Position numbers and translations under genes: made by a program. From Candidatus Staskawiczbacteria bacterium (GTDB lineage: Bacteria; Patescibacteriota; Minisyncoccia; Minisyncoccales; Staskawiczbacteraceae), in the NCBI GenBank assembly GCA_903835075.1, contig CAILLM010000005.1, positions 1-54,449 on the forward strand: a DNA stretch of 54,449 bases, given 5' to 3'. Below are positions 359-54,279 of the stretch, in pieces (within the stretch, counting starts at the first letter, position 1; each line of letters starts with the position of its first letter). Under the pieces are notes generated by a model, which worked only from the letters and a program-made list of their open reading frames with translations, was not told the origin of the DNA and did not search any database.

Positions 359-372
359 AATATATTTATAAG

Positions 373-2723: not shown

Positions 2724-2746
2724 TTATTATTCTTTTTTTTAATTTA

Positions 2747-27369: not shown

Positions 27370-27410
27370 CACTTCGACAAGTTCAGTGCAAGCCTAAATT
27401 TAAAAAATTT

Positions 27411-32589: not shown

Positions 32590-33750
32590 TTAATAATTTA
32601 TTTTTGTTCCAACTCTATACCTTGATAGGGGATTTGTAGCTCCAACAACCTGGAAGTGAACGTGACATCCCGTTGCATGACCAGTTCTACCCATTAAACC
32701 TATTTGTTGGCCAACGCTAACTTTATCTCCTGGTTGTACTCCAACAAATTCAAAGTGACCATAATAAGTAACTGTGCCATTTGGATGCAAAATAGTAACA
32801 TAGTTTCCCATACCCAAATTCCATGAATTGTTAAATACTGCTCTTTGTACTGTACCAGAAGCTGCTGCATAAACTGGTGTTCCACATTTATTAGCCAAAT
32901 CAATAGCATTAAAATAATGCAAACCTTGGGTAATTATTCCTTGCGCTGGAATAATAAAATAATTATTAGGTAAAGGAGTTTGTTTTTTTGTTGTTGGATT
33001 GGTGATGGGGTTGGTGATTGGGTTTTTGGCAGGGGCTGCAACTTTTGGCATTACTCCACCTGGTATTATTAAAATATCTCCAACATAAATATCGTCTTGG
33101 TTGGCCAAATCATTAAAAGAAATTATGTCTTCTGCATTTGCATTATATTTAGAAGCAATAGCTGCCATTGTGTCTCCAGACTGCACAACATGTAAAACCC
33201 CATCTACTGGTAAAATAGTTAAACTTTCACCAACTTTAATTTTTGAAGAAGTAGATAAATCATTTGCCCAAAGTATAGTATTAACAGAAATGTTGTAGGA
33301 ATCTGCAATAGATTGAAATGTATCGCCAGGTTGTACGGTGTAGTCAGTAACGTCTTTATTGTTTTGATTGCTTGCACCAAATACATCTCCCAAAACTTTT
33401 CCCGAAACTACACAGGGCGTCGACATTGCACAAAGTGTATTATCTTGCATTATTTTTAAATCTGGTGTTTCTAACGGGCCAGCATCTGACTGGCTAGAAA
33501 ATAAACTACTGGCATCTAGAGCTCCTACTTTACTAAAAAAAGAATTTAAAGACACTGTGCGTTCTTGACCAAAAACATTAGAACCGTCACAAGACAAATA
33601 TATTCCGCCAAACAACACAACTGAAATCACGCCGAAAAAAAATAAAGGATTTTTAAATAATCCCCCAAAATCAGCCCTCTTGTTGCTATGCTTTGCAGAG
33701 AGCCAAACCCTTTTTATCTTTATTAAAATTGTGTTAATTATCTTTAACAA
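32590..33750 (-). CDS. M23 peptidase with two LysM domains
   Basis: YTVQPGDTFQSIADSYNIS and HVVQSGDTMAAIASKYNA LysM repeats; HPNGTVTYYGH...GRTGHATGCHVHFQV. Confidence 0.93.
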   Translation of the reverse strand: MLKIINTILIKIKRVWLSAKHSNKRADFGGLFKNPLFFFGVISVVLFGGIYLSCDGSNVFGQERTVSLNSFFSKVGALDASSLFSSQSDAGPLETPDLKIMQDNTLCAMSTPCVVSGKVLGDVFGASNQNNKDVTDYTVQPGDTFQSIADSYNISVNTILWANDLSTSSKIKVGESLTILPVDGVLHVVQSGDTMAAIASKYNANAEDIISFNDLANQDDIYVGDILIIPGGVMPKVAAPAKNPITNPITNPTTKKQTPLPNNYFIIPAQGIITQGLHYFNAIDLANKCGTPVYAAASGTVQRAVFNNSWNLGMGNYVTILHPNGTVTYYGHFEFVGVQPGDKVSVGQQIGLMGRTGHATGCHVHFQVVGATNPLSRYRVGTKINY

Positions 33751-33894: not shown

Positions 33895-35403
33895 TCAATT
33901 TCCAACCATGATTGGTGGCAGGCTTGGATTGACGGGGGGCGTTGTTGGCGTAGCAGGGGTTGGAGTGTTAGGATTGGGATCCTTGAACCCAGTTCCGCTG
34001 TAAACAACTTTTTGTGCCCAGTTTTTGCCGTAGTCATACGACATATAAACCGCGCCACCTGAAACAGTAGCCGCCTGAATTTGGCCGTCATAAGAAACCT
34101 TAACTGACGACCAACTGCGACTGCTATCTGCTGTTTTCCAGCTATATCCGCCGTCATCACTGGTGTACAAATAACCACCGGCAACTGTTGCCGTGATGTA
34201 TCTGCCATCAGACGAAGTGGCCACTCCAGACCAATCCCTAACCCCCTCATTAATCTGGGGCGTCCAAGTTTGGCACGAGTCCCTAGAGATATACAAATAT
34301 CCGCCTGTGGCCGAGGCCACGGCAGTATTACCTGCCAACTCTACAGCTGACCAATTCCGGACATTGTCCGTTGCCGTTGAAGTCCACGTTCTGCCATAGT
34401 CAGCAGAGGTGTAAATATACCCGCCCGAAACCGTTGCTGCAATAAGATTGCTAGATGCAGAAACTGCCGACCAGTTGTTGGCACCACCAATGGGGTTCCA
34501 TGTTGAACCAAGGTCGGCAGAAGCATAAATGTAACCTCCAGCAGCGGTTGCAACCAAGTAATTACTCGCCTCACAAATGGCCGACCAGTTCTGAACACTG
34601 GCAGTAGGACTCCACGTTGCACCACCATCTTTTGAATCATAAATGTATCCTCCATTAACCGTGGCAAACTGACGTGGTACTCCTTGACCAAGCATGGTCA
34701 CAGCTGACCAATTTCCCGTAACTCCCGCAGGATTCCACGTTACGCCATAATCGGCAGAGGAAGATATACGACCAGCCTTGTCTACGGCTGTTAGGTATTG
34801 GCCATCGTCTGATAGTGAAATGGCCGACCAATAACTGGTGTTTGTACCACCTCCGCCATAGCCCCCACCTCCGCCCCAACCTGGGTTGGAATTGTTATTC
34901 CCGGGGTCACTAGGACTACCGTAATAACCTCCACCGTTGGGATAACCCGAGTTGTCTCTATTGCCGTAGCCGTAGCCGTAGCCACCGCCGCCAATTAACA
35001 TTGCGCCCAAGCCATAGACTCCCGCGTTGGGAGCCTGACCGTTAGAGGACAAGCTGAGACTTGGGGTTGAGACATTGTTGCGCGACGTAGAATTTTTTGC
35101 CAAATAATTATTGGCCGATGAATCGGCTTTCTTGACAATGGTTCCGCCAGAAGCAACGCTGTTAACACCGCTAGCAAATGGCAGTGGATTTGTTGTCCTG
35201 TTGCCCTTATTGAATTTGGGCGTGAAAAGACTTGTGTGGAAGTTTGGTTTAACCGACACACGAGATTGCGTTGGCTCCGAAGGGGAGCTACACAGTTTGA
35301 GAAAGCTTGCTGACAGCAAGCACAGCGTGACAACAAAGGCCTTTTTCAGACCAATTTTCTTAGTGATGGTCGCGGCTACCGCGACGAATGGTGCGATGTT
35401 CAT
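33895..35403 (-). CDS. secreted/lipoprotein-like BNR/Ycf48-type beta-propeller with Gly/Tyr-rich linker
   Basis: Repeats of NWSAV...ATVSGGYIYTSADYGRTW; GGGYGYGYGNRDN linker; start chosen at the ATG behind AAGGAAGG. Confidence 0.82.
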   Translation of the reverse strand: MNIAPFVAVAATITKKIGLKKAFVVTLCLLSASFLKLCSSPSEPTQSRVSVKPNFHTSLFTPKFNKGNRTTNPLPFASGVNSVASGGTIVKKADSSANNYLAKNSTSRNNVSTPSLSLSSNGQAPNAGVYGLGAMLIGGGGYGYGYGNRDNSGYPNGGGYYGSPSDPGNNNSNPGWGGGGGYGGGGTNTSYWSAISLSDDGQYLTAVDKAGRISSSADYGVTWNPAGVTGNWSAVTMLGQGVPRQFATVNGGYIYDSKDGGATWSPTASVQNWSAICEASNYLVATAAGGYIYASADLGSTWNPIGGANNWSAVSASSNLIAATVSGGYIYTSADYGRTWTSTATDNVRNWSAVELAGNTAVASATGGYLYISRDSCQTWTPQINEGVRDWSGVATSSDGRYITATVAGGYLYTSDDGGYSWKTADSSRSWSSVKVSYDGQIQAATVSGGAVYMSYDYGKNWAQKVVYSGTGFKDPNPNTPTPATPTTPPVNPSLPPIMVGN

Positions 35404-35584
35404 GATGCGTCCTTCCTTGTGGTTATTGTATTGTTTGGTTGTTGGAAATATGAAATTTTCAATGCTAGAAACATTTGACAAAATATTATTAATGTCCCTA
35501 ACGCTAGTTTACATTTATAATGCTATAACAACGGGGGTTTTGTCAAGCTTTTTTATCTTAATTCTGTTGTGCTATAATAATTTA

Positions 35585-36457
35585 ATGAATTTAACTTCTC
35601 CAACAATAATAAAAGAACTTCTTGCAAAATATGAAACCTACGCGTCAAAAGGACTTGGGCAAAATTTTTTAATAGACAAAAATGTTTTAAGAAAAATTGT
35701 TTTGGCAGGGGACATAGCACCAACAGACATAATATTGGAAGTTGGCCCTGGGCTTGGAGTACTAACACAAGAATTGGCACCTTTAGCAAAAAAAATTATT
35801 GCTGTTGAAAAAAGTGCCAGCATGCAAAATATTTTAAAAGAAACTTTGGCAGATTATAAAAACATAGAAATTATTGATGCCGACATTTTAACCCTAAACC
35901 CTGAATCCTATATCCTAAATCCTTACAAGGTAATTGCTAATATTCCATATTATTTAACTTCACCATTAATTAGAAAATTTTTAGAAATAGAAACACCTCC
36001 ACAAGAAATAGTTTTAATGATTCAAAAAGAGGTGGCACAAAGAATTTGTGCGCCAGTTGGCAAAATGAGCTTACTGGCAGTTTCTGTACAATTTTATGCA
36101 GATGTAAAAATTGTAAGCTATGTTTCAAAAAATTGTTTTTGGCCTGCACCAAAAATTGATTCAGCAATTATAAAAATAATTCCTCACAAACCCTTCGACT
36201 CCGCTCAGGGCAAAAAACAAATCTCGCATGATTTGTTTTTTGAAATTGTAAAAGCAGGATTTTCACAACCACGCAAACAACTTGGCGGAAATTTTTCTAA
36301 ATTCTTTCCGCCCAAGGCGGACCAGCCTGGGGCTGAAAAACTAAAAAAAGAGGGGATAGAGTCTTGGCTTTTAAAAAATAATATTAAACCCACTCAACGC
36401 GCCCAAACTTTATCAATCCAAGACTGGATCAATTTAACGCAAACTTTTTACATATAA
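35585..36457 (+). CDS. rsmA: 16S rRNA dimethyladenosine transferase
   Basis: YASKGLGQNFLIDKNVLRKIV, LEVGPGLGVLTQEL, VIANIPYYLTSPLI; ATG 35585 preferred over track start 35111. Confidence 0.95.
   Translation: MNLTSPTIIKELLAKYETYASKGLGQNFLIDKNVLRKIVLAGDIAPTDIILEVGPGLGVLTQELAPLAKKIIAVEKSASMQNILKETLADYKNIEIIDADILTLNPESYILNPYKVIANIPYYLTSPLIRKFLEIETPPQEIVLMIQKEVAQRICAPVGKMSLLAVSVQFYADVKIVSYVSKNCFWPAPKIDSAIIKIIPHKPFDSAQGKKQISHDLFFEIVKAGFSQPRKQLGGNFSKFFPPKADQPGAEKLKKEGIESWLLKNNIKPTQRAQTLSIQDWINLTQTFYI
36191..36210. repeat. dispersed 20-nt palindrome CCCTTCGACTCCGCTCAGGG inside rsmA
   Basis: Exact reverse complement of 29418-29437. Confidence 0.85.
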
Positions 36458-37122: not shown

Positions 37123-37144
37123 CTACCTTAAAATTTTTAGATGG
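37123..37144. repeat. 22-nt repeat CTACCTTAAAATTTTTAGATGG, copy 1
   Basis: 21/22 match to 37904-37925. Confidence 0.8.
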
Positions 37145-37826
37145 AGTGTGCGATTAAGCCCAGCACAAATATGTGAAGGGGATAGAATGTATAAAATATA
37201 TATTTAGAATAATAACCCCTTTGGCCATTATAATATTTAAGTAAACACAGCGGTATTAAATATCCAAACTGAATTGCAAACCATATAATTGGCAAAGCTA
37301 TATTTATAGAAGAATATGCAAATTTCATTTGACCTATAAAAAGTACAAGCAATATAAGTTGGATAAAAAACAATTTATAAAAATCCTTTTTTATATCAAA
37401 CAAGTAAAAAGAGAAAATTAGTAAAATACCAAAAAAACCAAAACCAAGACCTATATAATTACAAAAAATAGCAACCATAAAAACTACGGCAAGGGCATCT
37501 TTTTTGTTAGCTATGTGGTCATATAAATATAAGGCTAGCAACCCAAAAAATAAGTCTGCAAAAATATTTAGCTTTTCTATGCGTGGATTAAAAGTATATT
37601 GATAAATTGGCTGGGAAATAACAAAAAAAATAAAAATACGAAATAAATATTTTTTGATATTTTTTGTATGACGATACCCCTCTACTGCCAAAAATGCAAA
37701 TATTGGGAATGCTAACCTGCCAGCTATTCTTAAAATAATTAATTTTGGAAAAAAAAGATAGCAAACATGGTCAGCCAACATTGATAAACAAGCTATAACC
37801 TTTAAATGAAAAGAGTTTATGTTCAT
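37137..37826 (-). CDS. TraX family membrane protein
   Basis: HLKVIACLSMLADHVCYLFFP, RIAGRLAFPIFAFLAVEGYRHT. Confidence 0.88.
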   Translation of the reverse strand: MNINSFHLKVIACLSMLADHVCYLFFPKLIILRIAGRLAFPIFAFLAVEGYRHTKNIKKYLFRIFIFFVISQPIYQYTFNPRIEKLNIFADLFFGLLALYLYDHIANKKDALAVVFMVAIFCNYIGLGFGFFGILLIFSFYLFDIKKDFYKLFFIQLILLVLFIGQMKFAYSSINIALPIIWFAIQFGYLIPLCLLKYYNGQRGYYSKYIFYTFYPLHIFVLGLIAHSI

Positions 37827-37963: not shown

Positions 37964-39937
37964 ATGCAAAAATTTTTCTCTTTTTTAAAACAAAATAAAA
38001 TATTGTTTTTTGTGCTATTGGGATTATTTGTGTGGACAGGGTTACTATGCGTCCCAAGCTACGCAAAAGGGTTTGCAGGGTCTCCTCCTAGCTCCGCAGA
38101 CACTCTGATGAATTCTGTACCAGCAGTGCCATCAGACCTTGCAGAAGACCTAACTTTAGATTGGAAAGAAGTTCTTAATCCATTAAACCTTATGGCTGCT
38201 GCGGGAATGGCTGTTGTAGATGGGTCTTATAGAATTTCACAATATTGTGCTTATGCCCTTGATTACACACTTAAAAATATTTTACGTGCACCAATCACCA
38301 CAAAAGATGCTGGATTTTTAGATGCATGGGCGCAAATAAGAAATTTGGGCAATATGCTAATTGTATTGGGGTTTGTTGTTGTAGGTATTGCAACAGCGCT
38401 AAGAATTCAAACCTATGCTGCAACAAAACTTTTGTGGCCATTAATCTTGGTGGCTATTTTAGTTAATTTTTCGGGATTATTTTGTGGGTTAATAATTGAT
38501 GCATCAAACTTAGTAACCACAGGGCTGATGCAAACTAAGTTAGATACAAATGTTAACCAAAGCCAAGCTCCCGTGCAAATTGGTGGGGCTACTCACAAAG
38601 GCACGCTAGATACAATTTCTACAACACTAGTAAAAGAAATTAAATACACTTCTGTAAAAATCCTTAATCATGATTTATTTGATAAAGGGTTAGCAATGTT
38701 TTTTGTGGGATGCTGTTTATTTGGATTTGTATATTTAGGAATGGCTTTTACTTTCCTTTATTTAACAGTTTTACTTATAGCTAGATATGTTGTGCTAATA
38801 ATGTTATTTATACTTTCACCGTTAGCTTTTACTTTTTGGGTTTTTCCTGCCTCTCAACATTTATGGAAAGAATGGTGGAATCATTTTGTAAAATGGTCAT
38901 TTGTGGGAGTGTTTGGAGCATTTGTCCTTTTCCTCACAAATATAATATTGAGCCAACAAGCCCTTTTAAAAAGTGGAGCAACAAACATGACAGATTTTGC
39001 TCAAATGGGTCCGCTGTTTATTCAAATTATTATTGTTTTAGGATTTATGGCCATTGGATTTAAAATGACAGCTAAGAGTTCGGGCATTGCGTCTATGGCC
39101 ACTGGCGCTGTTTTGGGACTAGCAACTGGCGGAGCAGCTTTAGCAGCTGGATCAGTTGGAAAAGGAGCTAGCTTCTTATCAAATAAAACAGGGTTATCAA
39201 GGGTTGGCAGTAGAATAGGCAATAGCACTGGTAGGCTTGCAGAAAGATTTGGTCTCCGTCAAGAAGGAACTACCGCAGCCGCAGCAGCCAAACAAATGAA
39301 GTCCAAACAAGATTCTATTGGTAATTTAGACCTTGATAGGCAAGCTACATTGGCTGGAGGAAGTGCAATGAGTCATAATGCAGCTCAAGACAAAGTTGCA
39401 GCCATACAAAATTTAGCCAAAACTGGAAATATGCATAGGCTTGGTACTATAGATCAACAAAGAAATGCACTTTCCTATGCCCAAAGCTATATGAGAAGCA
39501 GGGGCGTAGACACGTCTGGATTTATGAGTGATGCAGAAAAATCAGATCCTAGGTTAAGAGCAGCCAACAATGTAAGAATTGAAAATGAAATGAGAGATAA
39601 CTTGCCTGCAATTCCTGCCAATGTTACTGGCGCCGCCAGAACAGTGGCAATAGAACAAAGGAGAAGCGCTGCTCAACACAATATCATAGCCCAAGGATTT
39701 GCTGATGCCAAAACCCCTGATATAAGAGGTTTCCATCCAAATGTATTACGATCAGACGAGTTTATAGAGAACACAAGCGCCAATAAAATTGAAAGGGCAG
39801 CAGCAGGAATGTCCACATCACAAGTTAATGCCCTTAGAGATCATTTAGCTGCTAATAGCCACTTAAACAATCTAATAACCAATAACCCGGGGAACCAAGA
39901 ATTAGCGCAAACACACGCGACCATCGCGGGATTATAA
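37964..39937 (+). CDS. TrbL/VirB6-like T4SS membrane protein
   Basis: Multi-TM N-terminal two thirds, LLIARYVVLIMLFILSPLAFTFWVFP, soluble Ala-rich C-terminus. Confidence 0.8.
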   Translation: MQKFFSFLKQNKILFFVLLGLFVWTGLLCVPSYAKGFAGSPPSSADTLMNSVPAVPSDLAEDLTLDWKEVLNPLNLMAAAGMAVVDGSYRISQYCAYALDYTLKNILRAPITTKDAGFLDAWAQIRNLGNMLIVLGFVVVGIATALRIQTYAATKLLWPLILVAILVNFSGLFCGLIIDASNLVTTGLMQTKLDTNVNQSQAPVQIGGATHKGTLDTISTTLVKEIKYTSVKILNHDLFDKGLAMFFVGCCLFGFVYLGMAFTFLYLTVLLIARYVVLIMLFILSPLAFTFWVFPASQHLWKEWWNHFVKWSFVGVFGAFVLFLTNIILSQQALLKSGATNMTDFAQMGPLFIQIIIVLGFMAIGFKMTAKSSGIASMATGAVLGLATGGAALAAGSVGKGASFLSNKTGLSRVGSRIGNSTGRLAERFGLRQEGTTAAAAAKQMKSKQDSIGNLDLDRQATLAGGSAMSHNAAQDKVAAIQNLAKTGNMHRLGTIDQQRNALSYAQSYMRSRGVDTSGFMSDAEKSDPRLRAANNVRIENEMRDNLPAIPANVTGAARTVAIEQRRSAAQHNIIAQGFADAKTPDIRGFHPNVLRSDEFIENTSANKIERAAAGMSTSQVNALRDHLAANSHLNNLITNNPGNQELAQTHATIAGL

Positions 39938-39953: not shown

Positions 39954-40490
39954 ATGGAAAACACAAATCAAAGAATAATTTTTGAGGTGCCAGAAGATAC
40001 AACTTCAGCAAAAATAATTTATGATATTTTAAAAGAAAACAACATTACAGAAAAAACTGCTCAAGATCTTTTCAATAAAGCAGCCGTTATTATTAAGGCC
40101 ACAAAAGATGTTTTTGACAAAAAAATAACAGAAGATAAAATGTCTGAACTTTTGCAAAATGAGTTAAAAATTTCTAAAGATGTGGCTGGCGCTATAATAA
40201 AAGAAATAAAAGAAAAATTATTGCCTTTGGCAAAAAAAGTAAATATTCCAAGCGACAAGGTGGAAACAAACACGCCAAGTTTTTTTAATGCAGATGAAAC
40301 AAAAATAGAGCTTCCACCAGAAATTGAAAAAAATATTGCAGAACGTCCATCTGTTACAGAATCAGAAAATAGTGTTATTAATACTGTTGTAAAAAAAACT
40401 CCAAGAATTAAAAAAATTCCACCAACAGTTTCTGTGCCACCAACAACGCAACCAAGCAAACCAGATAATTATCGTGAACCAATAGAATAA
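39954..40490 (+). CDS. hypothetical protein, T4SS-locus associated
   Basis: Helical N-terminal half, Pro-rich tail. Confidence 0.65.
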   Translation: MENTNQRIIFEVPEDTTSAKIIYDILKENNITEKTAQDLFNKAAVIIKATKDVFDKKITEDKMSELLQNELKISKDVAGAIIKEIKEKLLPLAKKVNIPSDKVETNTPSFFNADETKIELPPEIEKNIAERPSVTESENSVINTVVKKTPRIKKIPPTVSVPPTTQPSKPDNYREPIE

Positions 40491-40497
40491 AAAAATA

Positions 40498-40529
40498 CTT
40501 GTGCTGATTTTATCAAAGTATAAAAAAAT
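40498..40529. repeat. dispersed palindrome, 32-nt copy CTTGTGCTGATTTTATCAAAGTATAAAAAAAT
   Basis: 30/32 match to 33814-33845. Confidence 0.8.
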
Positions 40530-40530
40530 A

Positions 40531-40556
40531 GGGAAGCGTGATTGCTTCCCTTTTTT
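40531..40556. terminator. bidirectional terminator
   Basis: GGGAAGC-GTGATT-GCTTCCC-TTTTTT. Confidence 0.85.
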
Positions 40557-40636
40557 GATGCTCTGTCTTTATTAAAGACAGCTTCTGGCTTTCATCTAGC
40601 CCTTTGATTTTTTTGTTGATTGTTTTGAGAGGTTTC

Positions 40637-40671
40637 CCTGTTCTGCGGAAGTTGTGCTCCCGCAGAACAGG
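40637..40671. repeat. 12-bp perfect stem hairpin downstream of the SPFH gene
   Basis: CCTGTTCTGCGG - 11 nt - CCGCAGAACAGG. Confidence 0.85.
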
Positions 40672-40683
40672 ATTGGCACCCGA

Positions 40684-41892
40684 TTAGTCGTAGCGATTTA
40701 TCGGGCGGTCTGGCTCGGGTTCGGGGTCGGGCGTTGGCGGCAGTCCATCGTCGTCGTCGTCATCTGGTGGCAAGGTCACGCGCGGGTTGCGCGGATTTTG
40801 CTGGTTGGCGTTGCGTGGGGGCCTTGGCCCGCCACGTCCCGCACCAGCAAATACACCTGCTCCACCACCACCAAGCGACAACACACTGATACCATCGGGG
40901 AGCGGGCCACCACCGCTTGATATGTCGGTTTCAACCCGAGAGAAGTTACTTGCCAAAGCTTTGGTCCGCAGGTCTTCCAACGCTCTTTCTTTGCGTTGGT
41001 ATTCACCGCTGGTTTTCAGCTCGGCAACAACTTCTTCCTCGGGTTTACCGCCAGAGTGGGCAACGTGTCGAGCAACCCATTTTTCCATCATCAAGTCAAT
41101 GGGGTCACCAATACGGGCGGCCTCACCTTGAGCAATGAGTTCTTGCTGGCTTCGGGCTTTTTTGGCCGCCTGATAGGCGGGGTCCAATTCGACGGATTTG
41201 ACAACAATAGAATTTGGAACAATTTCCAAACCCCAGTCATCTCGTGCTTCGTCAAAAGACCCCGTGAGTTTCAATTTCTTGAGCTCCTTCCACATGGCAA
41301 CACCATTACCCTTGGCCGACTGGACGTGGTTGACATCCCCGCTGAATACCCATGCGCGCAAGGCGCCATCTTGGCGGTCTTCCACCGCTTCCCTGACGAC
41401 ATTACGGGGAGAGACAAATAGGAATTTCCGAGGGTTGATGACCCTCATTTTGGAAGTGAATTTTACATCCACCCCAACACTCCCTGGTTGTTCTCCTGGG
41501 ACAGCAGGTGGCTCGGTGGTTTCAGCCTCAGAGGTAAAGGGGTTTGACGCCACATCACCTAAGCGGATATAAACACCTTCTCCAAATCCGTCTATCTCAT
41601 TATAATCAAGGTATTTAGCCGGCTTTACAAATGGCCAGAAGTAGACAATCCAACCGCCGAAGCGGAGGATGTGGAAACAACTGCCATAACTGTTAGGGCC
41701 AGGGCCAGCAACAATGTCGCCGTCAGCGTTGAAATGATGCTCAGCAAACTCCATTGCACAAAGCACAAACCTGCCACGGCTTTTAAATATTACCGCATAC
41801 CCCTCTTGAACTGTCAGAAATCTGACAATAAAGAATGGGGATGCAATAACACATAGGCCGATAAACCAAATCAAAATATACAATAAGAACAT
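40684..41892 (-). CDS. SPFH/band-7-like membrane-anchored protein with Gly/Pro/Asp-rich C-terminus
   Basis: TM, VQEGYAVIFKSRGRF, VKFTSKMRVINPRKF, WGLEIVPNSIVVKSVELDPAYQAAKKARSQQELIAQGEAAR. Confidence 0.75.
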   Translation of the reverse strand: MFLLYILIWFIGLCVIASPFFIVRFLTVQEGYAVIFKSRGRFVLCAMEFAEHHFNADGDIVAGPGPNSYGSCFHILRFGGWIVYFWPFVKPAKYLDYNEIDGFGEGVYIRLGDVASNPFTSEAETTEPPAVPGEQPGSVGVDVKFTSKMRVINPRKFLFVSPRNVVREAVEDRQDGALRAWVFSGDVNHVQSAKGNGVAMWKELKKLKLTGSFDEARDDWGLEIVPNSIVVKSVELDPAYQAAKKARSQQELIAQGEAARIGDPIDLMMEKWVARHVAHSGGKPEEEVVAELKTSGEYQRKERALEDLRTKALASNFSRVETDISSGGGPLPDGISVLSLGGGGAGVFAGAGRGGPRPPRNANQQNPRNPRVTLPPDDDDDDGLPPTPDPEPEPDRPINRYD

Positions 41893-41995
41893 GGTTGACT
41901 CTCGCTTTCTTTTAGTTTCTCAAACAATCAAATAAGCACTTCGCACGGGACCGCCCCGCACAGAAACACTATTTGACAAGGTTCTCGAATGCTTT

Positions 41996-42024
41996 ACTAT
42001 ATCATATTAACACAACACTGTCAA
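41996..42024 (-). promoter_or_regulatory. sigma70 promoter of the SPFH gene
   Basis: Minus strand TTGACA (42024-42019), 17-bp spacer, TATAGT (42001-41996). Confidence 0.75.
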
Positions 42025-42101: not shown

Positions 42102-42509
42102 ATGGAACAATATCCTATACCACAATTTATTGAACAAGAAAGTAGAATTGCTTTCTTTATTTCATTTAGACAGTTTTTCTACTTGGTGGGGGCGGGGGTT
42201 CTTTGCTTTTTTCTATATTTTACTTTGCCTCGCATTATTTTTTATATCGCTTCGGCAGTTATTGCTGTTGCCTCGGTAATTCTTGCATTTGGAACAATAA
42301 ATGGCACGCCCATTTTGAATGTAATTTTAGGGTCAATTGGTTTTTCATTTGGTGGTAAAAATTACACTTGGAGTAAAAAAGAATCGCCATATCCTTTCAA
42401 GCCAATTCAACGAACCCAAATTAAAAAAATAGATTCAGGGCCAGTTTTAAAAGCACAAAACAGCCAACTAAAAAGAACAAAAACTTTAATTGATTTAAAA
42501 ACAAAATAA
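42102..42509 (+). CDS. PrgI family protein (VirB3-like)
   Basis: YPIPQFIEQESRIAFFISFRQFFYLVGAGVLCFFLYFTLP; two TM; next to VirB4-like genes. Confidence 0.85.
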   Translation: MEQYPIPQFIEQESRIAFFISFRQFFYLVGAGVLCFFLYFTLPRIIFYIASAVIAVASVILAFGTINGTPILNVILGSIGFSFGGKNYTWSKKESPYPFKPIQRTQIKKIDSGPVLKAQNSQLKRTKTLIDLKTK

Positions 42510-42510: not shown

Positions 42511-43167
42511 ATGGCAGAATCAGCAACGCAAGCATTTTTAGAAATACAAGATATTAGAGAGGGAGTTTTACTTTTGAAAAATAATTCTATTAGAGGAATT
42601 TTGATGACCTCTTCAATAAACTTTGCTTTAAAATCTGAAGAAGAGCAAACAGCAACAATATTTGCTTTTCAAAACTTTTTAAATTCCTTAGACTTTTTTT
42701 GCCAAATTGTTATTCAATCAAGAAATATAAATATCACTCCATATTTAGACAGTTTAAAAGATTTGGAAGAAAAACAAACCAACGAATTACTAAAAAAACA
42801 AACTTCTTCTTATCGAGAATTTATAAAAGAAATGGTGGTGGGGGACGTGGTTATGACTAAAAGTTTTTACATTGTGGTGCCATATAATTTGATGGAAATC
42901 TTTGGAGTAAAGGGCGCTCAGAAAAATTTTGGCATGGTAGCTGGAAGTAGTGCAAACAGCAAACCAATGTCTGATGATGATTTCCAAAGATGTAAATCAC
43001 AACTATGGCAAAGAATGGAATATATTTCTATGGGACTAAGAAGATGTGGGCTAGAAGCTGTTCCGTTAACAACTCCAGAACTTATAGAGTTGTTTTGGTC
43101 TATTCATCATCCTGACCAAGCAGAAATTGGATATTACCCAGAAATATTACCAGAGTTACTTAAGTAA
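42511..43167 (+). CDS. VirB4/TraC N-terminal-domain-like protein, apparently split from the ATPase
   Basis: IQDIREGVLLLKNNSIRGILMTSSINFALKSEEEQTATIFAFQNFLNSLDFFCQIVIQSR. Confidence 0.75.
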   Translation: MAESATQAFLEIQDIREGVLLLKNNSIRGILMTSSINFALKSEEEQTATIFAFQNFLNSLDFFCQIVIQSRNINITPYLDSLKDLEEKQTNELLKKQTSSYREFIKEMVVGDVVMTKSFYIVVPYNLMEIFGVKGAQKNFGMVAGSSANSKPMSDDDFQRCKSQLWQRMEYISMGLRRCGLEAVPLTTPELIELFWSIHHPDQAEIGYYPEILPELLK

Positions 43168-43178: not shown

Positions 43179-44984
43179 ATGAAATTTTTAGATAATCTTT
43201 TAGGTAAAAAAGAGCAAGACCTTACTGAGCAAATTTTTCAAGAAGAAGCTTTTGATGTAAAAGATATTATTGCTCCGCCATATATTGGGGTTTTGCAAGA
43301 CCACATAAAATTGGGCGAGCGTTTGGCAAAATCTTTTTTTGTTTTTTCTTATCCCCGTTATTTAAACACTGGATGGTTTTCACCTGTTATAGATTTAAAC
43401 ACTCCAATGGACATTTCATTTTTTATACATCCTGTAAGTTCAGAATTAATTTTAAAAAAATTAAGAAAAAAAGTTACGGAAGTTTCTTCAGAATTGTTGG
43501 AAAGGGAAGAGAAGGGCTTGATTAGAGATCCTGCTTTGGAAACCGCTTACAAAGACATTGAAACATTAAGAGATAACTTAATGACTGCTCAAGAAAAAAT
43601 GTTTCGGCTGGGTTTATATATTACAATTTATGAAACTTCTGAAAAAGAATTACGCGACACTGAGCTTACTTTAAGATCAATTTTTGAATCTAGATTAATT
43701 TATATTAAGCCTGCATTGTTTAAACAAAAAGAAGGATTTATTTCTTGCAACCCATATGGAATGGATTTAATTAATGTTCACACTCCAATGGATACGGCCC
43801 CACTTTCAACTTGTTTCCCATTTATTTGTTTTGACCTAAGTTCTAATGAAGGAATTTTATATGGCATAAATAGACATAATAATTCTTTAGTTTTATTTGA
43901 TAGATTTAGTTTGGAAAATGCTAACATGGTTGTTTTTGCTAAAGCTGGTTCTGGAAAGTCTTATGCAATTAAACTAGAAATTTTAAGATATTTAATGCAA
44001 GGCGTGGACGTAATTATTATTGACCCAGAAAATGAATATGAAGTTTTGGCTGATTCTGTTGGCGGTTCATTTTTAAAAATTTCTTTAACTTCTGCAAATC
44101 ACTTAAACCCTTTTGATTTACCCGTGCCTGGGCCAGATGATAATCCTCAAGATATTTTAAGATCTAATGTTATCAACTTGGTTGGACTTTTGCGAATTAT
44201 GTTGGGCGGGCTAACGCCAGAAGAAGACAGTATTTTAGATGAAGCTTTAACACAAACATATGCTGTGCGTGATATTACTGCTGAATCAGATCCAAAAACC
44301 TGGGCAAACAATACTCCGCTCATGTCTGACTTCCAAGAAATTTTAGAAAGTATGACTGGTACAGAATCTTTGGTAAAACGTATTGGTAAATTTACTAAAG
44401 GAACTTTTGCTGATTTCTTTAACCAACAATCTAATATTTCTTTAGACAAAAACTTTGTTGTTTTTGGAATAAGAGACATGGAAGAATCTTTAAGGCCAAT
44501 TGCTTTATACATTGTTATGAGATATATTTGGAACATTGTAAGATCAAAATTGAAAAAAAGAATTTTAGTTATTGATGAAGCTTGGTGGCTTATGCAATCA
44601 GCTGACGGAGCATCATTTCTTTTTGGTCTTGTAAAAAGAGGAAGAAAATATTGGCTGGGAGTTACAACAATTACTCAGGATGTGTCTGACTTTATGAAGT
44701 CTGATTATGGCAAGGCAATTATTACAAACTCTTCATTACAACTTTTAATGAAACAATCTACTGCTGACATTGATACTGTGCAAAAAGTTTTTAATTTAAC
44801 AGAACAGGAAAAATATTTATTGTTGGGAGCATCAATTGGAGAAGGATTATTTTTCGCAGGTAAAAAACATGTGTTTCTTTCTGTTGTTGCCAGCCAAACA
44901 GAAAACCAAATAATCACAACTAACCCACAAGAAGTTTTAGCAAATAGGGAAGCGAAGAAAAATCTGGAATCATCAAAAAATTAA
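43179..44984 (+). CDS. VirB4/TraC-like T4SS ATPase
   Basis: Walker A AKAGSGKSYAIK, DPENEYEVLADSVGGSFLKIS, Walker B RILVIDEAWWLM. Confidence 0.93.
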   Translation: MKFLDNLLGKKEQDLTEQIFQEEAFDVKDIIAPPYIGVLQDHIKLGERLAKSFFVFSYPRYLNTGWFSPVIDLNTPMDISFFIHPVSSELILKKLRKKVTEVSSELLEREEKGLIRDPALETAYKDIETLRDNLMTAQEKMFRLGLYITIYETSEKELRDTELTLRSIFESRLIYIKPALFKQKEGFISCNPYGMDLINVHTPMDTAPLSTCFPFICFDLSSNEGILYGINRHNNSLVLFDRFSLENANMVVFAKAGSGKSYAIKLEILRYLMQGVDVIIIDPENEYEVLADSVGGSFLKISLTSANHLNPFDLPVPGPDDNPQDILRSNVINLVGLLRIMLGGLTPEEDSILDEALTQTYAVRDITAESDPKTWANNTPLMSDFQEILESMTGTESLVKRIGKFTKGTFADFFNQQSNISLDKNFVVFGIRDMEESLRPIALYIVMRYIWNIVRSKLKKRILVIDEAWWLMQSADGASFLFGLVKRGRKYWLGVTTITQDVSDFMKSDYGKAIITNSSLQLLMKQSTADIDTVQKVFNLTEQEKYLLLGASIGEGLFFAGKKHVFLSVVASQTENQIITTNPQEVLANREAKKNLESSKN

Positions 44985-45002: not shown

Positions 45003-48000
45003 GTGGCAAATTTTCTTAAAAATTTTTTTTCTTTTTGTTGCTTATGCAGTGTTTTTTTGTTAAAAGCAGAATTGGTTTTTGCACTAGAAGTTAAGTACCC
45101 AGATATTTTAGGGAAGTCTTTAGATGACAGCTCCACATTAGGAAATTTTGTTTGCTATTTATTTAATGCAGGAGTTTCTTTGGCAATCACAATTGCTGTT
45201 TGTACAATAGTCTATGGAGCAATTTATTATATAATTTCTTATGGGCGGGGGAGTTTTACTAGTGAAGCCAAGGACTGGATAAAGTCAGGGATTTTGGGAA
45301 TGCTGATAATTGTATGCGCTTCTCTAATTCTTTACACCATAAACCCAGATGTAAAAACTTGTAAAATTTCTTTATTGGCCAATGCCACTCTTCCAAATAT
45401 TTTTGGCACTATTCCTGCATCATCAACACCCGTGTCTGCTGCTACTTATAATGAAATTCCTGTTGGAACTTTAGTTGAAAATCTTTTAACAAGAACCTCT
45501 ATTTTTGCTTCTTATGATAAATATGGAGATATTGTTATGCCAGATCCCAGCCAATCAACAGGGGGTAATAGCCAGCCTAGTAATCCCTATGTAAATGAAG
45601 ACCGAGTAACAGGCTTGAGACAAATGATAGAAGGAGCGCAAAGAAAAGCCCGCGTAGCTGCTGAGTTGTCAGATGAAATAACCAAGTTAATGAACACCTG
45701 CTCTTGCAGAATAAAAGATGCAAACGGAAAAGATACTGGCAAAAGTAAGTGTGACCCAACCTGCGACCCTGCCAATGGGGGATGCCCAGTAAAAGGCTCT
45801 TGTCCTGGCGGTTCTTGTGATGCCAAGGGTGCTTGTTTTGGTGGATCATGCAAGCCGTCATATTCTTCGCCCGATTGTTGCCCTACGGGTGTCAAAGAAA
45901 AAATTGAGCATGGTCCCATATATGTACATATTGATGTTAACAAAGACCCAGATAACAATACACAAGTTACCTGTGATGTTCCATGTACAGAAGATTCTGA
46001 CTGCCAGTCGGCAGGATCAAAAGAATTGAATAGAACTAATACCAAAGAAACAATGGGGCCATCTTGCGACCCCGATACCCATACCTGCGGGGTAAAATAT
46101 AAAGGACTAGATGAGTTTAGGTGCCCGCTATCTTCTCAAGACAAAAAAATGCAAAAGTGTGAAGACATAATGCCCATAATTTCTACAGCAGCCACAAGTG
46201 CGGGCAATATTGGTGTTGTGCAAATATATCCTGATAAATGGTATAAGTTAACTTTGTGGCAACAATTAAAATGGTTTCAAGAATATATTTTAGCCTGGTC
46301 AGACACTTTTGGTTTGCATGCAGATATACAAAATTTACAATCTGCAAGACAAAAAATAAGCCAATGTCATCGCTTAGTAGCTGCCACAGACATGTTAAAA
46401 AGTAATGAGGTTTTAAGTCTACAAAAACAAGTTATAATTAAAAGCCCAACCCAACTTGTTGATTTTTCAAGTGGAAAAACAATAAATTCTTCACAATATT
46501 GTACGGGCTTTAATTATGACAAGTCTGATTGTTTAGGAAATTGTAACAAACAATGCCCAGATTCTGGCGCTACAAGTGCTTATGCAGAATGCAAAGATGC
46601 CTCTTGTTTAACAAATGCTTTCAAAACAAAAAAGTGCAATGACGGGACTGATTTTAACAGTTGTTTAAAAACCTGCCAAGATGATTGCGCGAAAGATTGT
46701 GTATCACACTATCCGGGTTGCTCTCCAGAAAGAAGCGCTTGCGAACAACAATGTGAAAGTAGTGGTCAATGTGCCATAGATAATGCTGACAAATGCTTAT
46801 TTGCTTCTGTTGGGGGAGTCACAGCTTGTGCAAAAAATAATGCCGACGATTCTTCTGCTTTTAACGCTTGTATTTATAAAAGTAACACTTGTATAAATGG
46901 CTCCAAACAACATTCTGGTTATCCAGATTGTATAAGCAATTTTAATGATTTAGATAAAAAATGCTCAACACTTAAAGACTTAACCAGTTGCATAGCCGAG
47001 AAACAAAATGGTGTCTGTATGTGGCTTGGAGATTCTTGCGGAGGATTTTCTAAATCTGTAAAAACTACTGATCCTCTTTATTGTTCGAATCTTACAGGAA
47101 AAAACACTTGTGAAGGGGCAGGATGTATTTGGTCACCTGCGCATTGCCTTGTAGGAAACTTATTTCCAGATAGCCAAGTATATTCTGCTACATATCTTTA
47201 TGAAAACCCCAATAATCAAAAGTGCCCAATAGGTCAAACCAAAAATCCTCAAACAAATGTCAACGGCCTTGTATCTTCTTTGTGTGTAAATATATATCCA
47301 GAAACCGCTAAATGTCCAGCCAGTGCATCTTCTGGATGCCCAACTTGTCCATGCGGTAAAATAGATGAGCCTTTTGGATTTCTTGTGCCAAATAGAAGCA
47401 CGGCCGTTGCCTATAAAAAATGCACAAACAGTGGCCAATGCGCAAAAGATCAAATTTGTATACAAAAGGTGTGCATGAGTAATGGAAAAGAAAATATTCC
47501 TTGCAAAACCGACGCTCAATGTTGTAAAACAGGAGAAACTTGCTCAACCACAAAACATGTTTGCGTAACTAACGCAGGTGACGAAGGCTATGTTGTTAAA
47601 ACTCCAAATATTACTGTTTACCAAATGGTAAGCCCTCAGTGTAACGGATATGCTTATAATGATGACCCCCTAACTTATTATTGTGAAGATAATTGGTGGA
47701 ATGATTTCTATAAAGAAAAAAGTGATCCATCAACTCCAATAGGAAAAGAAAAAAATTGCAGTAAGAAAGAAGTTATTCCTATTGGTCAAACAATTGATAA
47801 CTCTTTGGCTTGGACTAAAACAATTTTAAAAGTACCAGAGACAACATCAAAATTAATCCAACCACTACTTGACCAGATGAAAAAAATGGGAAATGCAATA
47901 GAAACAGATGAGTCAAAAAATCCCTACCCGCAAGTAGCAAATTATTGTAAGTGCGGAGCACAATTTGAAGATAATACACCCATGTGCACGAGCGGTTGCC

Positions 48001-48626
48001 AATATCATCAACAACAAGTGATGGTAGATGTAAATACAGCTGATGCCAACGGTAACCCAATAACTATTCAACAATTACAATGGCAATGCAGTTGCGACCT
48101 TGACCCATGCAAGGGTAGTCCATGCCAACAAATGGTAGATTACCATTCACAGCTTTGGAATGCTTACATAAAATTTATGAATGATGCCGATAGCCCAGAC
48201 CATCCAACAGATAACACCTGCAACAAAAAACCTAGCTCAGGGACTACAAAATTTGGATATACTGTTAAGCCAGACTATATAAGTACTTATACCTGGTTTA
48301 TTGAAGAACCTAGAAGTGATATTTTAAAACAATTAACTTATTCTAGGCAACAAACAGATTATTGCAGTACAAACAGCACAGCCTACGGCCAAAGCCAAGT
48401 TAGGTTACTAAACTGTTCTAGGGCTGAAAATGAACTTTTGCCGCCAATTAACCAAGATAAAATACAGCTAAATGGCAAGGCCTACCCAGGAAAATGTTAT
48501 GGTGAAAAATTAGGTAAAGCAGCAGGGGCAGATTTAACCGATGACTGGATGTGCTGCACACAATGGAGCGACACGCAATCAAAAAATAAAGATCCGTTAT
48601 ATGAATTAAAAAATAATAATCTTTAA
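45003..48626 (+). CDS. 1207-aa Cys-rich secreted/membrane protein with N-terminal VirB2/TrbC-like TM module
   Basis: GTG start; signal peptide; TM pair ending ILYTINPDVKTC; many CxxxC-type Cys motifs. Confidence 0.8.
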   Translation: MANFLKNFFSFCCLCSVFLLKAELVFALEVKYPDILGKSLDDSSTLGNFVCYLFNAGVSLAITIAVCTIVYGAIYYIISYGRGSFTSEAKDWIKSGILGMLIIVCASLILYTINPDVKTCKISLLANATLPNIFGTIPASSTPVSAATYNEIPVGTLVENLLTRTSIFASYDKYGDIVMPDPSQSTGGNSQPSNPYVNEDRVTGLRQMIEGAQRKARVAAELSDEITKLMNTCSCRIKDANGKDTGKSKCDPTCDPANGGCPVKGSCPGGSCDAKGACFGGSCKPSYSSPDCCPTGVKEKIEHGPIYVHIDVNKDPDNNTQVTCDVPCTEDSDCQSAGSKELNRTNTKETMGPSCDPDTHTCGVKYKGLDEFRCPLSSQDKKMQKCEDIMPIISTAATSAGNIGVVQIYPDKWYKLTLWQQLKWFQEYILAWSDTFGLHADIQNLQSARQKISQCHRLVAATDMLKSNEVLSLQKQVIIKSPTQLVDFSSGKTINSSQYCTGFNYDKSDCLGNCNKQCPDSGATSAYAECKDASCLTNAFKTKKCNDGTDFNSCLKTCQDDCAKDCVSHYPGCSPERSACEQQCESSGQCAIDNADKCLFASVGGVTACAKNNADDSSAFNACIYKSNTCINGSKQHSGYPDCISNFNDLDKKCSTLKDLTSCIAEKQNGVCMWLGDSCGGFSKSVKTTDPLYCSNLTGKNTCEGAGCIWSPAHCLVGNLFPDSQVYSATYLYENPNNQKCPIGQTKNPQTNVNGLVSSLCVNIYPETAKCPASASSGCPTCPCGKIDEPFGFLVPNRSTAVAYKKCTNSGQCAKDQICIQKVCMSNGKENIPCKTDAQCCKTGETCSTTKHVCVTNAGDEGYVVKTPNITVYQMVSPQCNGYAYNDDPLTYYCEDNWWNDFYKEKSDPSTPIGKEKNCSKKEVIPIGQTIDNSLAWTKTILKVPETTSKLIQPLLDQMKKMGNAIETDESKNPYPQVANYCKCGAQFEDNTPMCTSGCQYHQQQVMVDVNTADANGNPITIQQLQWQCSCDLDPCKGSPCQQMVDYHSQLWNAYIKFMNDADSPDHPTDNTCNKKPSSGTTKFGYTVKPDYISTYTWFIEEPRSDILKQLTYSRQQTDYCSTNSTAYGQSQVRLLNCSRAENELLPPINQDKIQLNGKAYPGKCYGEKLGKAAGADLTDDWMCCTQWSDTQSKNKDPLYELKNNNL

Positions 48627-48637
48627 TATACTTTTGT

Positions 48638-49702
48638 ATGACAAAAAAAATATTGTTTTTTCTATTTTTAACTTTAATTTTTTTAGGAACCGCAAATTTG
48701 GTTTTTGCAGTAGAGGTAACAGATGGACCTTGTGCAAACTCAGCTAATTTGGGCGCATGCACAGTAAGCCTTTTTAAGTGGGGGATAGGCATTGCCGCTG
48801 TTTTGGCTGCCTTATCTTTTGCCGTAGGAGCAATTACGCTTACAATTTCTGGTGATAATAGTGGATTAGCGGGTAGTGGAAAAGATCGCATGAAGGGTTC
48901 TGTTTATGGCTTAGTTTTAGTGGGGGCTTCTTATTTAATTATGAATACTATTAACTTCGCATTAGTAACTCCTGGCTCTAAACCTTTAACTGAAACAGCT
49001 TTGCCAACTGTCCCTGTTGCACCTGGCGTATATTTTTATGCAGATGCTGGTTGTGGCAAAGACGCTAGTTATAGTACCGTTGTTAGCGAAGAAAGTATTG
49101 GAGCAAACATTAATGGCATTAAGGTTGTTAATGACACAGCCAATGGCGCTAATACTAAATATGGTTATGTTTTACATAAAATAGATGGCCTTGCAAATGG
49201 TGGCCCCTGTGGCAAACCAGTGACCAGCTCATCTGGGTGCCAAGGGGTTAATGGCATGCATGGAGCAATAGATGTCTTCCAAATAAACAGTCAAGATTCT
49301 TCTACTTCTGGAGATGGCGTAACTTTTTATAGTAGACCCTATGGTTTAGACAGGGGCTCACGAGCTGGATATTATGCTGTGGAATCTGGTTCTATAAATG
49401 ATCACACCTCTCCGACTGCCGATAGTATGACTTTTAAATGGGATGGGGTAGATGCTTCACAACAAGAACAAAATGACTGCTCAACATTTAAAAAGTGTCC
49501 TGGTTCAATAGACTTAAAGGGTGATTATTTGGTGGCTGTTTATTCTAACAAATCAACATCTGGAGGCTCTGGGGGTTCTGGAGATTATTGCCAAACATTC
49601 ACAGATAATGTTAACGACTTAGATGCAGAACCAGTAGTGGGCTCAGGAAGTAGAGACATACAAAATATTTATATAATACCAACTGGCGGTGCTGCAAGAT
49701 AA
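48638..49702 (+). CDS. TM-anchored surface protein, paralog 1 (possible beta-gamma-crystallin-like exterior)
   Basis: Signal peptide plus TMs then PGVYFYADAGC... SIDLKGDYLVAVYSN ... DIQNIYIIPTGG. Confidence 0.75.
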   Translation: MTKKILFFLFLTLIFLGTANLVFAVEVTDGPCANSANLGACTVSLFKWGIGIAAVLAALSFAVGAITLTISGDNSGLAGSGKDRMKGSVYGLVLVGASYLIMNTINFALVTPGSKPLTETALPTVPVAPGVYFYADAGCGKDASYSTVVSEESIGANINGIKVVNDTANGANTKYGYVLHKIDGLANGGPCGKPVTSSSGCQGVNGMHGAIDVFQINSQDSSTSGDGVTFYSRPYGLDRGSRAGYYAVESGSINDHTSPTADSMTFKWDGVDASQQEQNDCSTFKKCPGSIDLKGDYLVAVYSNKSTSGGSGGSGDYCQTFTDNVNDLDAEPVVGSGSRDIQNIYIIPTGGAAR

Positions 49703-49705
49703 TAC

Positions 49706-50923
49706 ATGGATAAAAAATTAACAAATTTAATTAAAACATTCTTCGGTTTTTTAATTGTTAATTTTTTTTATTTGCCAATAAGCAAGGCTTTTGCAGACAC
49801 TCCTCTAGAAATACAATATCCTACTGATTTTAAAACAATAACTGGACAAACAGTCTCAGCTGTTACAGACCTGCCCAGTTATATGAAGTATATGTTTAGC
49901 GCAGGAATGACAATTGGATTTTCTATTGTTATAATTTCTCTAACTATTGGAGGCATATTATATTTTTTAGCACCCATAAGCGCTGATGCAAAAAAAGAGG
50001 CAAAAGACAGGATAGCAGGGGCAATTTCGGGATTACTTATTTTGGTTTTAACATATTTGATTATAACAACCATAAATCCTCAGTTAAACATATTTAGTAG
50101 CACCAAACTTCAAGAAACGCCCCTGCCTACCGTGCAAGTCCAAAAAGACCCCGGGGTTTATTTCTATAAAGAATCGGGTTGCCCTGAAAATGGAGAAACT
50201 GCACGCAAGTCCAATATTGTAGACCTAGCAGACCTCAAAAAAAAGTTAAAATCTATTAATATTGTTCAAGACACTACTGGCAATCATTCTTATATATCAA
50301 TTTTATATGAAAATCCAAATCTATGGGGATCATGCCAATATGTTGACCCCAACAAAGGATGCCAAACCGTAGACCCATTTGCGTCATCAGCCTCTATCCA
50401 CGAATATGATTCTAGCTCTAGCGCAAACGGAGGAGTATATTTTTTCCATAAATCTTGTGTTAGCACTGACATAAGCAATTCCAATGATATAGATAAACTA
50501 ATAGAACAATGTAAAAAAGATGGATATTATATGGCATCCAAGGGTGTTTACCAATTAAAAGATTTGAAATTTCAGCAAGTCCCAGATGAGGAAAAGGAGT
50601 GCGAAAAATATGATAAAAACTCTACTTGCACCAGCAAAAAGGATCCAACATTGGCTGGAGATAATATTTCTTCCGTAATAATAAAGGGTAATTATATGGT
50701 TTTGTTTTTTTATTTTGGGCCAAACAATGAATCACAAGGTAAGTGGGCTTCTTGCCAAGAGTTTCCTAATATATATGACGTGAATAACGCGGGCCCCAGA
50801 CAAATGAAATGGGAAATTGTTAGAAATACCAAGGGATTATTTCCCAATTATATTTCAATTATTCCCATAAAGGGTCCTACACCAACAGCACCTGCTTCGA
50901 GCTTAATACCAATAATACCATAA
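49706..50923 (+). CDS. TM-anchored surface protein, paralog 2 (possible beta-gamma-crystallin-like exterior)
   Basis: Same architecture: PGVYFYKESGC ... ISSVIIKGNYMVLFFYFG ... YISIIPIKG. Confidence 0.75.
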   Translation: MDKKLTNLIKTFFGFLIVNFFYLPISKAFADTPLEIQYPTDFKTITGQTVSAVTDLPSYMKYMFSAGMTIGFSIVIISLTIGGILYFLAPISADAKKEAKDRIAGAISGLLILVLTYLIITTINPQLNIFSSTKLQETPLPTVQVQKDPGVYFYKESGCPENGETARKSNIVDLADLKKKLKSINIVQDTTGNHSYISILYENPNLWGSCQYVDPNKGCQTVDPFASSASIHEYDSSSSANGGVYFFHKSCVSTDISNSNDIDKLIEQCKKDGYYMASKGVYQLKDLKFQQVPDEEKECEKYDKNSTCTSKKDPTLAGDNISSVIIKGNYMVLFFYFGPNNESQGKWASCQEFPNIYDVNNAGPRQMKWEIVRNTKGLFPNYISIIPIKGPTPTAPASSLIPIIP

Positions 50924-52923: not shown

Positions 52924-54279
52924 ATGAACAATATAGAACTCTGGCAATCAGTCCTATCACAAATGCAGTTCCACATCTCTAGAGCGAATTTTGCTACTTG
53001 GTTTCAAAACACAGAAATTATTTCTAAAGACAATGAAAAAATAATAATTTCTGTCCCAAATGCTTTTTCTAAAGAGTGGTTAAGCAATAAATATAATAAG
53101 TTAATTTTAAAGACTCTTCACGATATAGACGACTCTATAAGAGAGTTGGAATTTGTAATAAAACCACAGCCAATCAAAAATACACCAATAAAGAATACAT
53201 CTGGAATAGAGGAGCAGGAAGAAATCCAATTAAAATTTGAAGAATTTAAAATAAATAAGGAAACCAACCTTAATCCACGATATACATTTAATAGTTTTGT
53301 AGTTGGCTCATTTAATGAATTGGCGCATGCAGCGGCACTAGCAGTAGCAGACAACCCTGGTTTTACTTATAACCCTTTATTTATTTATGGTGGTACGGGC
53401 TTAGGAAAAACACACTTAATACAAGCTATTGGAAATAAAATAAATGACGAACTAAAAAAGAAAAAAATAAAGTATATTTCTTCTGAAAAATTTGTTTCTA
53501 GCATTGTTTCTGCTATTAGAACAAACACAATGGAAACATTTAAGGCTAGTTTGGCGCCTATTGATGTTTTGATTTTAGATGACATACAATTTATTGCTGG
53601 AAAAAATAAAAGCCAAGAAGAGTTTTTTCATATTTTTAATTCTTTATATGAAAAAAATAAACAAATAATTCTTTCCTCAGATAGACCGCCTAATGCTATC
53701 GCCGAACTTGAAGACAGATTAAGGTCTAGGTTTGAAGGGGGGATGATAGCTGACGTCAGCTTACCAGACTATGAAACAAGATTAGTTATTTTAAAAACAA
53801 AATTGCAAGAAAAAAATGCCGACTTGCCAGAAGATGTTTTAGACTATATTGCTGCTAATGTTAAAAAAAATATTCGGGAGCTAGAGGGCGCTTTAAATAA
53901 AATTTTAATTCATAATAAAATAAACCCTGGATTAAATCTAGAAATGGTTAAAAAACTACTTAGAGGTTTTGTTTTTTCTCCATTCGATGTAGCAAATTAC
54001 AAAAAAATAATTGAAACAGTGGCCAAATTTTACAACTTAGAAGAAAAAAATTTATTTGATCCAACAAGAAGAAAGGAAATTGTAAAACCAAGACAAGTTG
54101 CTATGTTCTTATTAAGGAAAGAATTAAAATATTCTTTTCCAGCTATTGCTAGAAAGTTTGGCGGGAAAGACCACACAACAGCAATTTACGCTTTTAAAAA
54201 GATTGAAGCGGAAAATGAAGAAAACAACAAATTAACAGAAGAATTAAACCTAATAAAACAGAGAATATACAGTGGATAA
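52924..54279 (+). CDS. dnaA: chromosomal replication initiator DnaA
   Basis: FIYGGTGLGKTHLIQAIGN, VLILDDIQFIAGK, C-term GGKDHTTAIYAFKKIE. Confidence 0.98.
   Translation: MNNIELWQSVLSQMQFHISRANFATWFQNTEIISKDNEKIIISVPNAFSKEWLSNKYNKLILKTLHDIDDSIRELEFVIKPQPIKNTPIKNTSGIEEQEEIQLKFEEFKINKETNLNPRYTFNSFVVGSFNELAHAAALAVADNPGFTYNPLFIYGGTGLGKTHLIQAIGNKINDELKKKKIKYISSEKFVSSIVSAIRTNTMETFKASLAPIDVLILDDIQFIAGKNKSQEEFFHIFNSLYEKNKQIILSSDRPPNAIAELEDRLRSRFEGGMIADVSLPDYETRLVILKTKLQEKNADLPEDVLDYIAANVKKNIRELEGALNKILIHNKINPGLNLEMVKKLLRGFVFSPFDVANYKKIIETVAKFYNLEEKNLFDPTRRKEIVKPRQVAMFLLRKELKYSFPAIARKFGGKDHTTAIYAFKKIEAENEENNKLTEELNLIKQRIYSG

Follow-up and report, generated by a model that had tools for sequence, protein, structure and literature searches.

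The stretch analysed here (the window) comprises 54,449 nucleotides of a Candidatus Staskawiczbacteria bacterium, whose genome of 794,466 bases is 97.9% complete and belongs to the Paceibacteria. It holds a type IV secretion system (T4SS) locus in which genes for PrgI and a TrsD-like protein precede VirB4, and three long open reading frames follow in the order p1, p2 and p3. Opposite-strand genes of jag, YidC and rnpA type lie 3' of p3, and then dnaA. A first-pass annotation had singled out the three frames between 45003 and 50923 as proteins with a signal peptide and membrane segments, and we found all three in place with these elements in each. The genes considered are:

27303 to 27791, forward strand: small VirB2/TrbC-like pilin of the structural pilin type (PF18895, 8.2e-9; TrbC, 2.3e-8)
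37964 to 39937, forward strand: VirB6-like polytopic membrane protein, assigned by position and hydrophobicity only
42102 to 42509, forward strand: PrgI (VirB3-like; PF12666, 2.9e-7)
42511 to 43167, forward strand: TrsD-like protein, similar to the VirB4 N-terminus (NCBIfam TrsD NF041427, 5e-5; VirB4_plasma NF045975, 6.5e-9; both below cut-off)
43179 to 44984, forward strand: VirB4 ATPase (NF045971 conju_CD1110, E 2.7e-105, above cut-off)
45003 to 48626, forward strand: p1, 1207 residues, start codon GTG; signal peptide, pilin module and a Cys-rich ectodomain of 1.1 thousand residues
48638 to 49702, forward strand: p2, 354 residues; signal peptide, pilin module and beta-gamma-crystallin-like ectodomain
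49706 to 50923, forward strand: p3, 405 residues; signal peptide, pilin module and two-domain ectodomain
from 50972, opposite strand: jag (R3H/KH)
from 51466, opposite strand: YidC-type protein
from 52205, opposite strand: rnpA-type frame, assigned by position
52924 to 54279: dnaA

VirB4, PrgI and TrsD occur together near dnaA, as in a Patescibacteria-type (MPF-FATA-related) T4SS locus. The survey by Quinonero-Coronel et al. (2025, PMC12102498) gives a T4SS beside dnaA as a known Patescibacteria arrangement and describes systems with arrays of VirB2-like pilins, which our locus resembles in VirB4, TrsD, PrgI, VirB2-like pilins and the position near dnaA/rnpA. The VirB4 protein shares 75-90% identity with VirB4 of relatives, and its relatives point to Candidatus Staskawiczbacteria as the group of the genome. 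For the VirB6-like frame there was no significant Pfam match, and TraJ TIGR03782 matched weakly (E 0.14). A defence-system or phage origin was rejected, with no PADLOC or PHROG match. Near the T4SS genes, the minus strand also encodes a LysM and Peptidase_M23 protein (32590-33750), possibly a VirB1-type wall enzyme, and a TraX protein (37137-37826). GC content reaches 0.446 and 0.449 at 34001-36000 and 40001-42000, against about 0.30-0.39 elsewhere in the window; the second stretch contains a minus-strand frame (40684-41892) without a Pfam match.

The N-termini of p1, p2 and p3 each consist of a hydrophobic signal sequence and two more hydrophobic segments. That these form VirB2/TrbC-like anchors had been proposed from the DNA alone and is borne out by matches to T4SS_pilin PF18895 (cut-off 26.6 bits in the genome scan), by a pilin profile and by a tree of the modules:

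45084 to 45356, forward strand: p1 VirB2/T4SS_pilin-like two-helix module, residues 28-118 (PF18895 19.5 bits, below cut-off; pilin profile 78 bits; tree)
48710 to 48967, forward strand: p2 pilin module, residues 25-110 (PF18895 27.6 bits, above cut-off)
49802 to 50095, forward strand: p3 pilin module, residues 33-130 (PF18895 weak, E 0.048, 14.2 bits, below cut-off; pilin profile 115 bits)

With ortholog matches counted at E up to 1, PF18895 was found in 15 of 15 p2 orthologs (best E 8.7e-10) and 6 of 13 p3 orthologs (best E 5e-4). A suspected kinship with the small pilin gene of the window also held, since its product, a T4SS_pilin/TrbC protein, is detectably related to p2 (E 1.4e-4). The similar sequence context noticed at the end of the membrane segments is real as well: an exact TINP marks the exit of helix 2 in 48 of 75 large pilin-module frames from the surveyed VirB4 loci, and most of the others carry a near variant. 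The possibility that the segments were unrelated to the VirB2, TrbC or VirB6 families was tested and not borne out. The likeness between p1 and p2 is confined to the pilin module (32% over residues 4-125). In all three proteins the hairpin is followed by 244 to 1089 further residues; p1-p3 are pilin-module proteins, not plain pilins. With the PF18895 and TrbC-VirB2 (PF04956) pilins they share the signal peptide and two-helix hairpin, to which they add an ectodomain at the C-terminus (about 240 to 1090 residues), and their modules form a tree group of their own. The loop between the helices is rich in Lys and Arg in each protein, which by the positive-inside rule would turn the C-terminal part outward.

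Beyond the membrane part, p2 and p3 are paralogous, as first read from shared motifs: the identity is 33% across query residues 43-233 (E 1.7e-19). Their ectodomains divide into two domains each:

49016 to 49294, forward strand: p2 beta-gamma-crystallin-like domain 1, residues 127-219 (member of the A6 alignment; model pLDDT about 77-87)
49307 to 49687, forward strand: p2 domain 2, probable divergent Greek-key domain, about residues 224-350 (model pLDDT about 90 for most)
50141 to 50419, forward strand: p3 beta-gamma-crystallin-like domain 1, residues 146-238 (profile and Foldseek matches)
50426 to 50872, forward strand: p3 domain 2, probable divergent Greek-key domain, residues 241-389 (pLDDT 80-92 over residues 261-330, lower after)

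The sequences of domain 1 from 38 relatives, collected for their homology to p2/p3 and without regard to any resemblance to crystallins, were aligned without the membrane part (A6). Searched against the PDB (177,635 distinct sequences; matches accepted to E 10), the A6 profile gave 14 matches, 13 of them beta-gamma-crystallins, including Flavollin (3hzb, 1.7e-5), Protein S (1prr, 0.0018), Clostrillin (about 0.04) and beta-B2 crystallin (0.22); the sole exception was a phage tail sheath (0.019). Flavollin was likewise the single PDB match of the full p3 profile (E 0.025) and of the p3-ectodomain profile (E 0.018), and the full-length p2 profile retrieved from the PDB only weak cytochrome oxidase matches to its membrane part. 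Pfam matches in single relatives were weak (Crystall PF00030, 3.7e-4; Crystall_3, 8.9e-4; Inhibitor_I36, 0.003), none above cut-off where one is shown. Profile similarity thus supports domain 1 of p2 and p3 as beta-gamma-crystallin-type. AlphaFold2 models of moderate confidence (mean pLDDT 76.9 for p2 and 66.0 for p3) and Foldseek agree on the superfamily of the putative paired Greek-key fold, and this comparison did not refute the proposed Greek-key exterior. With the p3 model, 34 of the best 41 Foldseek matches are beta-gamma-crystallins (Hahellin, probability 0.91; 3hzb, TM 0.60), which supports a crystallin-type p3 ectodomain; with the p2 model the most probable match is the crystallin IPSE (probability 0.66). 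No Foldseek match of either model has an E below 0.001.

Domain 2 is probably a divergent Greek-key domain, judging from the models: Foldseek matches of the p3 model to two-domain gammaS crystallins cover 216-246 columns. Its own profile (A8) found no crystallin in the PDB, which gives a crystallin assignment no support from sequence, and the profiles of the two domains are weakly similar (hhalign E 0.0015, probability 17). The crystallin-like exterior proposed for two of the proteins therefore stands for domain 1 and has structural support only for domain 2; the combination of pilin module and domain 1 is well supported. Many p2 orthologs have an extra domain of about 100 residues between domain 1 and the pilin module, and three carry Cys-rich insertions within domain 2 (L079:11013-12581, L074:14993-16348 and L076:9259-10749).

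The canonical Ca2+ motif of beta-gamma-crystallins is N/D-N/D-x-x-S/T-S (PMC3551895). It occurs nowhere in p1, p2 or p3, and its counts of 1, 0 and 2 in aligned relatives show no excess over shuffled means of 0.8, 0.6 and 1.1, so that the suggestion of Ca-binding domains had to be given up and calcium binding was rejected. Six Cys of p3 are invariant in 13 orthologs, and two Cys of domain 1 reach 90% conservation or more in the 38 aligned sequences. Together with the missing motif, this makes disulphides the likelier stabiliser of the ectodomains. The genome encodes a DsbA-type Thioredoxin_4 protein but has no match to VKOR, which leaves the oxidative route for p1 disulphides putative.

These observations bear on what the displayed domains might otherwise be. 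Calcium-binding structural domains could form a coat like those of Protein S and spherulin 3a, and Protein S is indeed the second-best PDB match of the A6 profile; as p1-p3 lack the motif, relatives show no enrichment of it and p3 has six invariant Cys instead, we regard such a coat as very unlikely. The beta-gamma superfamily also includes protease inhibitors (I36) and killer-toxin-like proteins, and sub-threshold Inhibitor_I36 matches occur in three relatives (0.003-0.008). An inhibitor or toxin-like domain is nonetheless hard to reconcile with a permanent two-helix anchor in which no release site was seen, and the I36 and Crystall matches may reflect the shared fold only, which leaves this role highly improbable. 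Even less credence goes to the idea that the ectodomain is another beta-sandwich matched to crystallins by chance: single-sequence scores and Foldseek E values are weak, but nearly all PDB profile matches fall into one superfamily, to which structure comparison leads as well.

The ectodomain of p1 is of a different kind. The protein contains 86 Cys in all, dozens of which are invariant among its orthologs in 12 aligned loci (31-41% identity), and the displayed region is probably disulphide-bonded. No known domain was found in it with Pfam and none credible in the PDB. One part next to the membrane can be delimited:

45420 to 45902, forward strand: p1 juxtamembrane domain, residues 140-300, with a conserved EIPxGTLxENLL (profile matches in L108, 65 bits, and L101, 32 bits)

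This domain is common to shorter pilin-module proteins of other families, in the two loci just named. In other families, the pilin part of p1 and a secreted protein rich in Cys seem to have a gene each, the Cys-rich link to p1 being an 18-bit match.

The distribution of these proteins was followed with the same profiles. Within the order, the p3-ectodomain profile has matches in 49 of the 247 genomes, spread over 27 of the 148 genera; for A6, 20 of 387 genomes of the class match, 18 of them in the same order. An N-terminal pilin module is present in 37 of the 40 A6-matching frames from the class genomes, a count in which some genes appear more than once; of the remaining three frames, two are truncated at the edge of the locus. 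Synteny was counted over the 57 VirB4 loci whose sequence continues for 5 kb or more beyond VirB4. Large pilin-module frames follow VirB4 in all 19 loci of the p1-p2-p3 family, 18 with a crystallin-like domain, which upholds the proposed T4SS linkage; outside the family, such frames occur in 14 of 38 loci and the crystallin-like domain in six. By these counts, p1-p3-type proteins are lineage-specific additions and not universal parts of this T4SS. Nor are they its obligatory neighbours, as 24 of the 57 loci have no large pilin-module frame downstream.

In the tree of pilin modules (94 rows and few columns, with deeper forks unresolved), eight small structural pilins are split from the other 86 rows with support of 99/96, and the small pilin at 27303-27791 falls outside the large-protein group. 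The modules of p1 (99/93) and p3 (99/100) each form one side of a branch; those of p2 do not resolve in this way. The 86 also include seven rows that are labelled small: in four of them the frame is truncated by the end of a contig or locus, and the rows L100, L122 and L123 look like genuine short forms. The large proteins diverge fast: median identity among orthologs is 31% (p2), 36% (p1) and 44% (p3 ectodomain), compared with 83% for VirB4. This divergence fits a contact surface, and also simple relaxed constraint.

Tree and synteny also serve to weigh two further explanations of the hairpin. As minor pilins, the large proteins would be built into a VirB2-type pilus and decorate its tip or shaft rather than sit at the membrane. 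They do belong to the same module family as the small pilins, of which the genome has an array adjoining a gyrA-like gene; their well-supported separation from the structural pilins and the difficulty that a p1 ectodomain of 1.1 thousand residues would probably have in packing along a VirB2-type helix make us doubt this arrangement. Alternatively, the hairpin might be a mere anchor with no T4SS tie, the synteny reflecting a highly expressed origin-proximal slot. The content of the slot differs between families, down to loci that lack such frames altogether, yet the tight p1-p2-p3 order directly after VirB4 within the family, the similar proteins after VirB4 in other loci and the membership of the module in a T4SS pilin family render an unconnected anchor unlikely.

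We favour the reading, with a probability of about 0.6, that p1, p2 and p3 make up a dedicated, T4SS-linked family of surface proteins, likely for host contact or recognition. Signal peptide and VirB2-like hairpin would put the C-terminus outside the membrane, and the hairpin may dock the protein to or into the translocon or pilus formed by PrgI, VirB4, the VirB6-like protein and the small VirB2-like pilins. The part thus exposed at the cell surface would be a crystallin-type Greek-key module in p2/p3 and the Cys-rich region in p1, with putative ligand binding at the host cell. In this role the proteins would stand in for VirB5 tip proteins or adhesins of the PrgB type, neither of which appears to be known from this T4SS class; VirB5 was not found among Gram-positive systems (PMC12857230), and PMC12102498 reports VirB2-like pilins in Patescibacteria and no PrgB-type adhesin. 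We derive the role, which is probably host-contact or pilus-tip-like, from the gene position, the predicted topology, the divergence and the fact that no adhesins are known for this T4SS class. More tentatively, at slightly under even odds, p1-p3 may represent an undescribed class of T4SS component, derived from VirB2 and no longer pilus-building, whose large ectodomains, including a disulphide-stabilised crystallin-fold recognition module, form a host-contact layer replacing VirB5/PrgB.

The likeness of p1-p3 to VirB5 and PrgB lies in the proposed role only, as outward contact elements of a T4SS; the anchor of p1-p3 is a VirB2-like hairpin, in place of LPxTG or of pilus-tip assembly on VirB6. 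To the microbial beta-gamma-crystallins Flavollin (3hzb), Protein S (1prr), Clostrillin (3i9h) and Hahellin (2kp5), domain 1 is related by profile and structure, the difference being that p2/p3 have conserved Cys in place of the canonical motif and are fused to a T4SS pilin anchor. In its consulted parts, the Patescibacteria survey presents the pilin as small and mentions neither large ectodomains nor a crystallin fold, unlike what is seen in p1-p3. The literature searched contained no description of a pilin module combined with a crystallin ectodomain, and nothing relevant on crystallins with Patescibacteria or secretion systems.

A T4SS was reported to be essential for epibiotic growth in one Patescibacterium tested (PMC12102498). 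In this context, p1-p3 offer concrete, sequence-defined candidates for host-contact parts of the Patescibacteria T4SS, and good candidates for the contact surface that an ultra-small, episymbiont-type bacterium uses on its hosts. They illustrate the reuse of a VirB2-like module as a display anchor for a crystallin fold, and a pilin module with ectodomain directly after VirB4 provides a marker for finding such proteins elsewhere.

Some further variants came up among the loci. The VirB4 of L201 (G017:C7:36300-40200; frame 42-3839, minus strand) carries an intein in its Walker A motif (GSGKS/YAIK), recognized by Intein_splicing PF14890 (8e-19) and LAGLIDADG_3 (1e-16), and the VirB4 of G056 has an insert at the same place. 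The small VirB2-like pilin array beside the gyrA-like gene (L203, G000:C8:91500-97500) spans 1566-3650 on the minus strand, and its last frame (184 residues) contains a tandem pair of pilin modules. In L188 (G379), which lies outside the order, one frame has two such modules and, after them, a weak crystallin-like domain.
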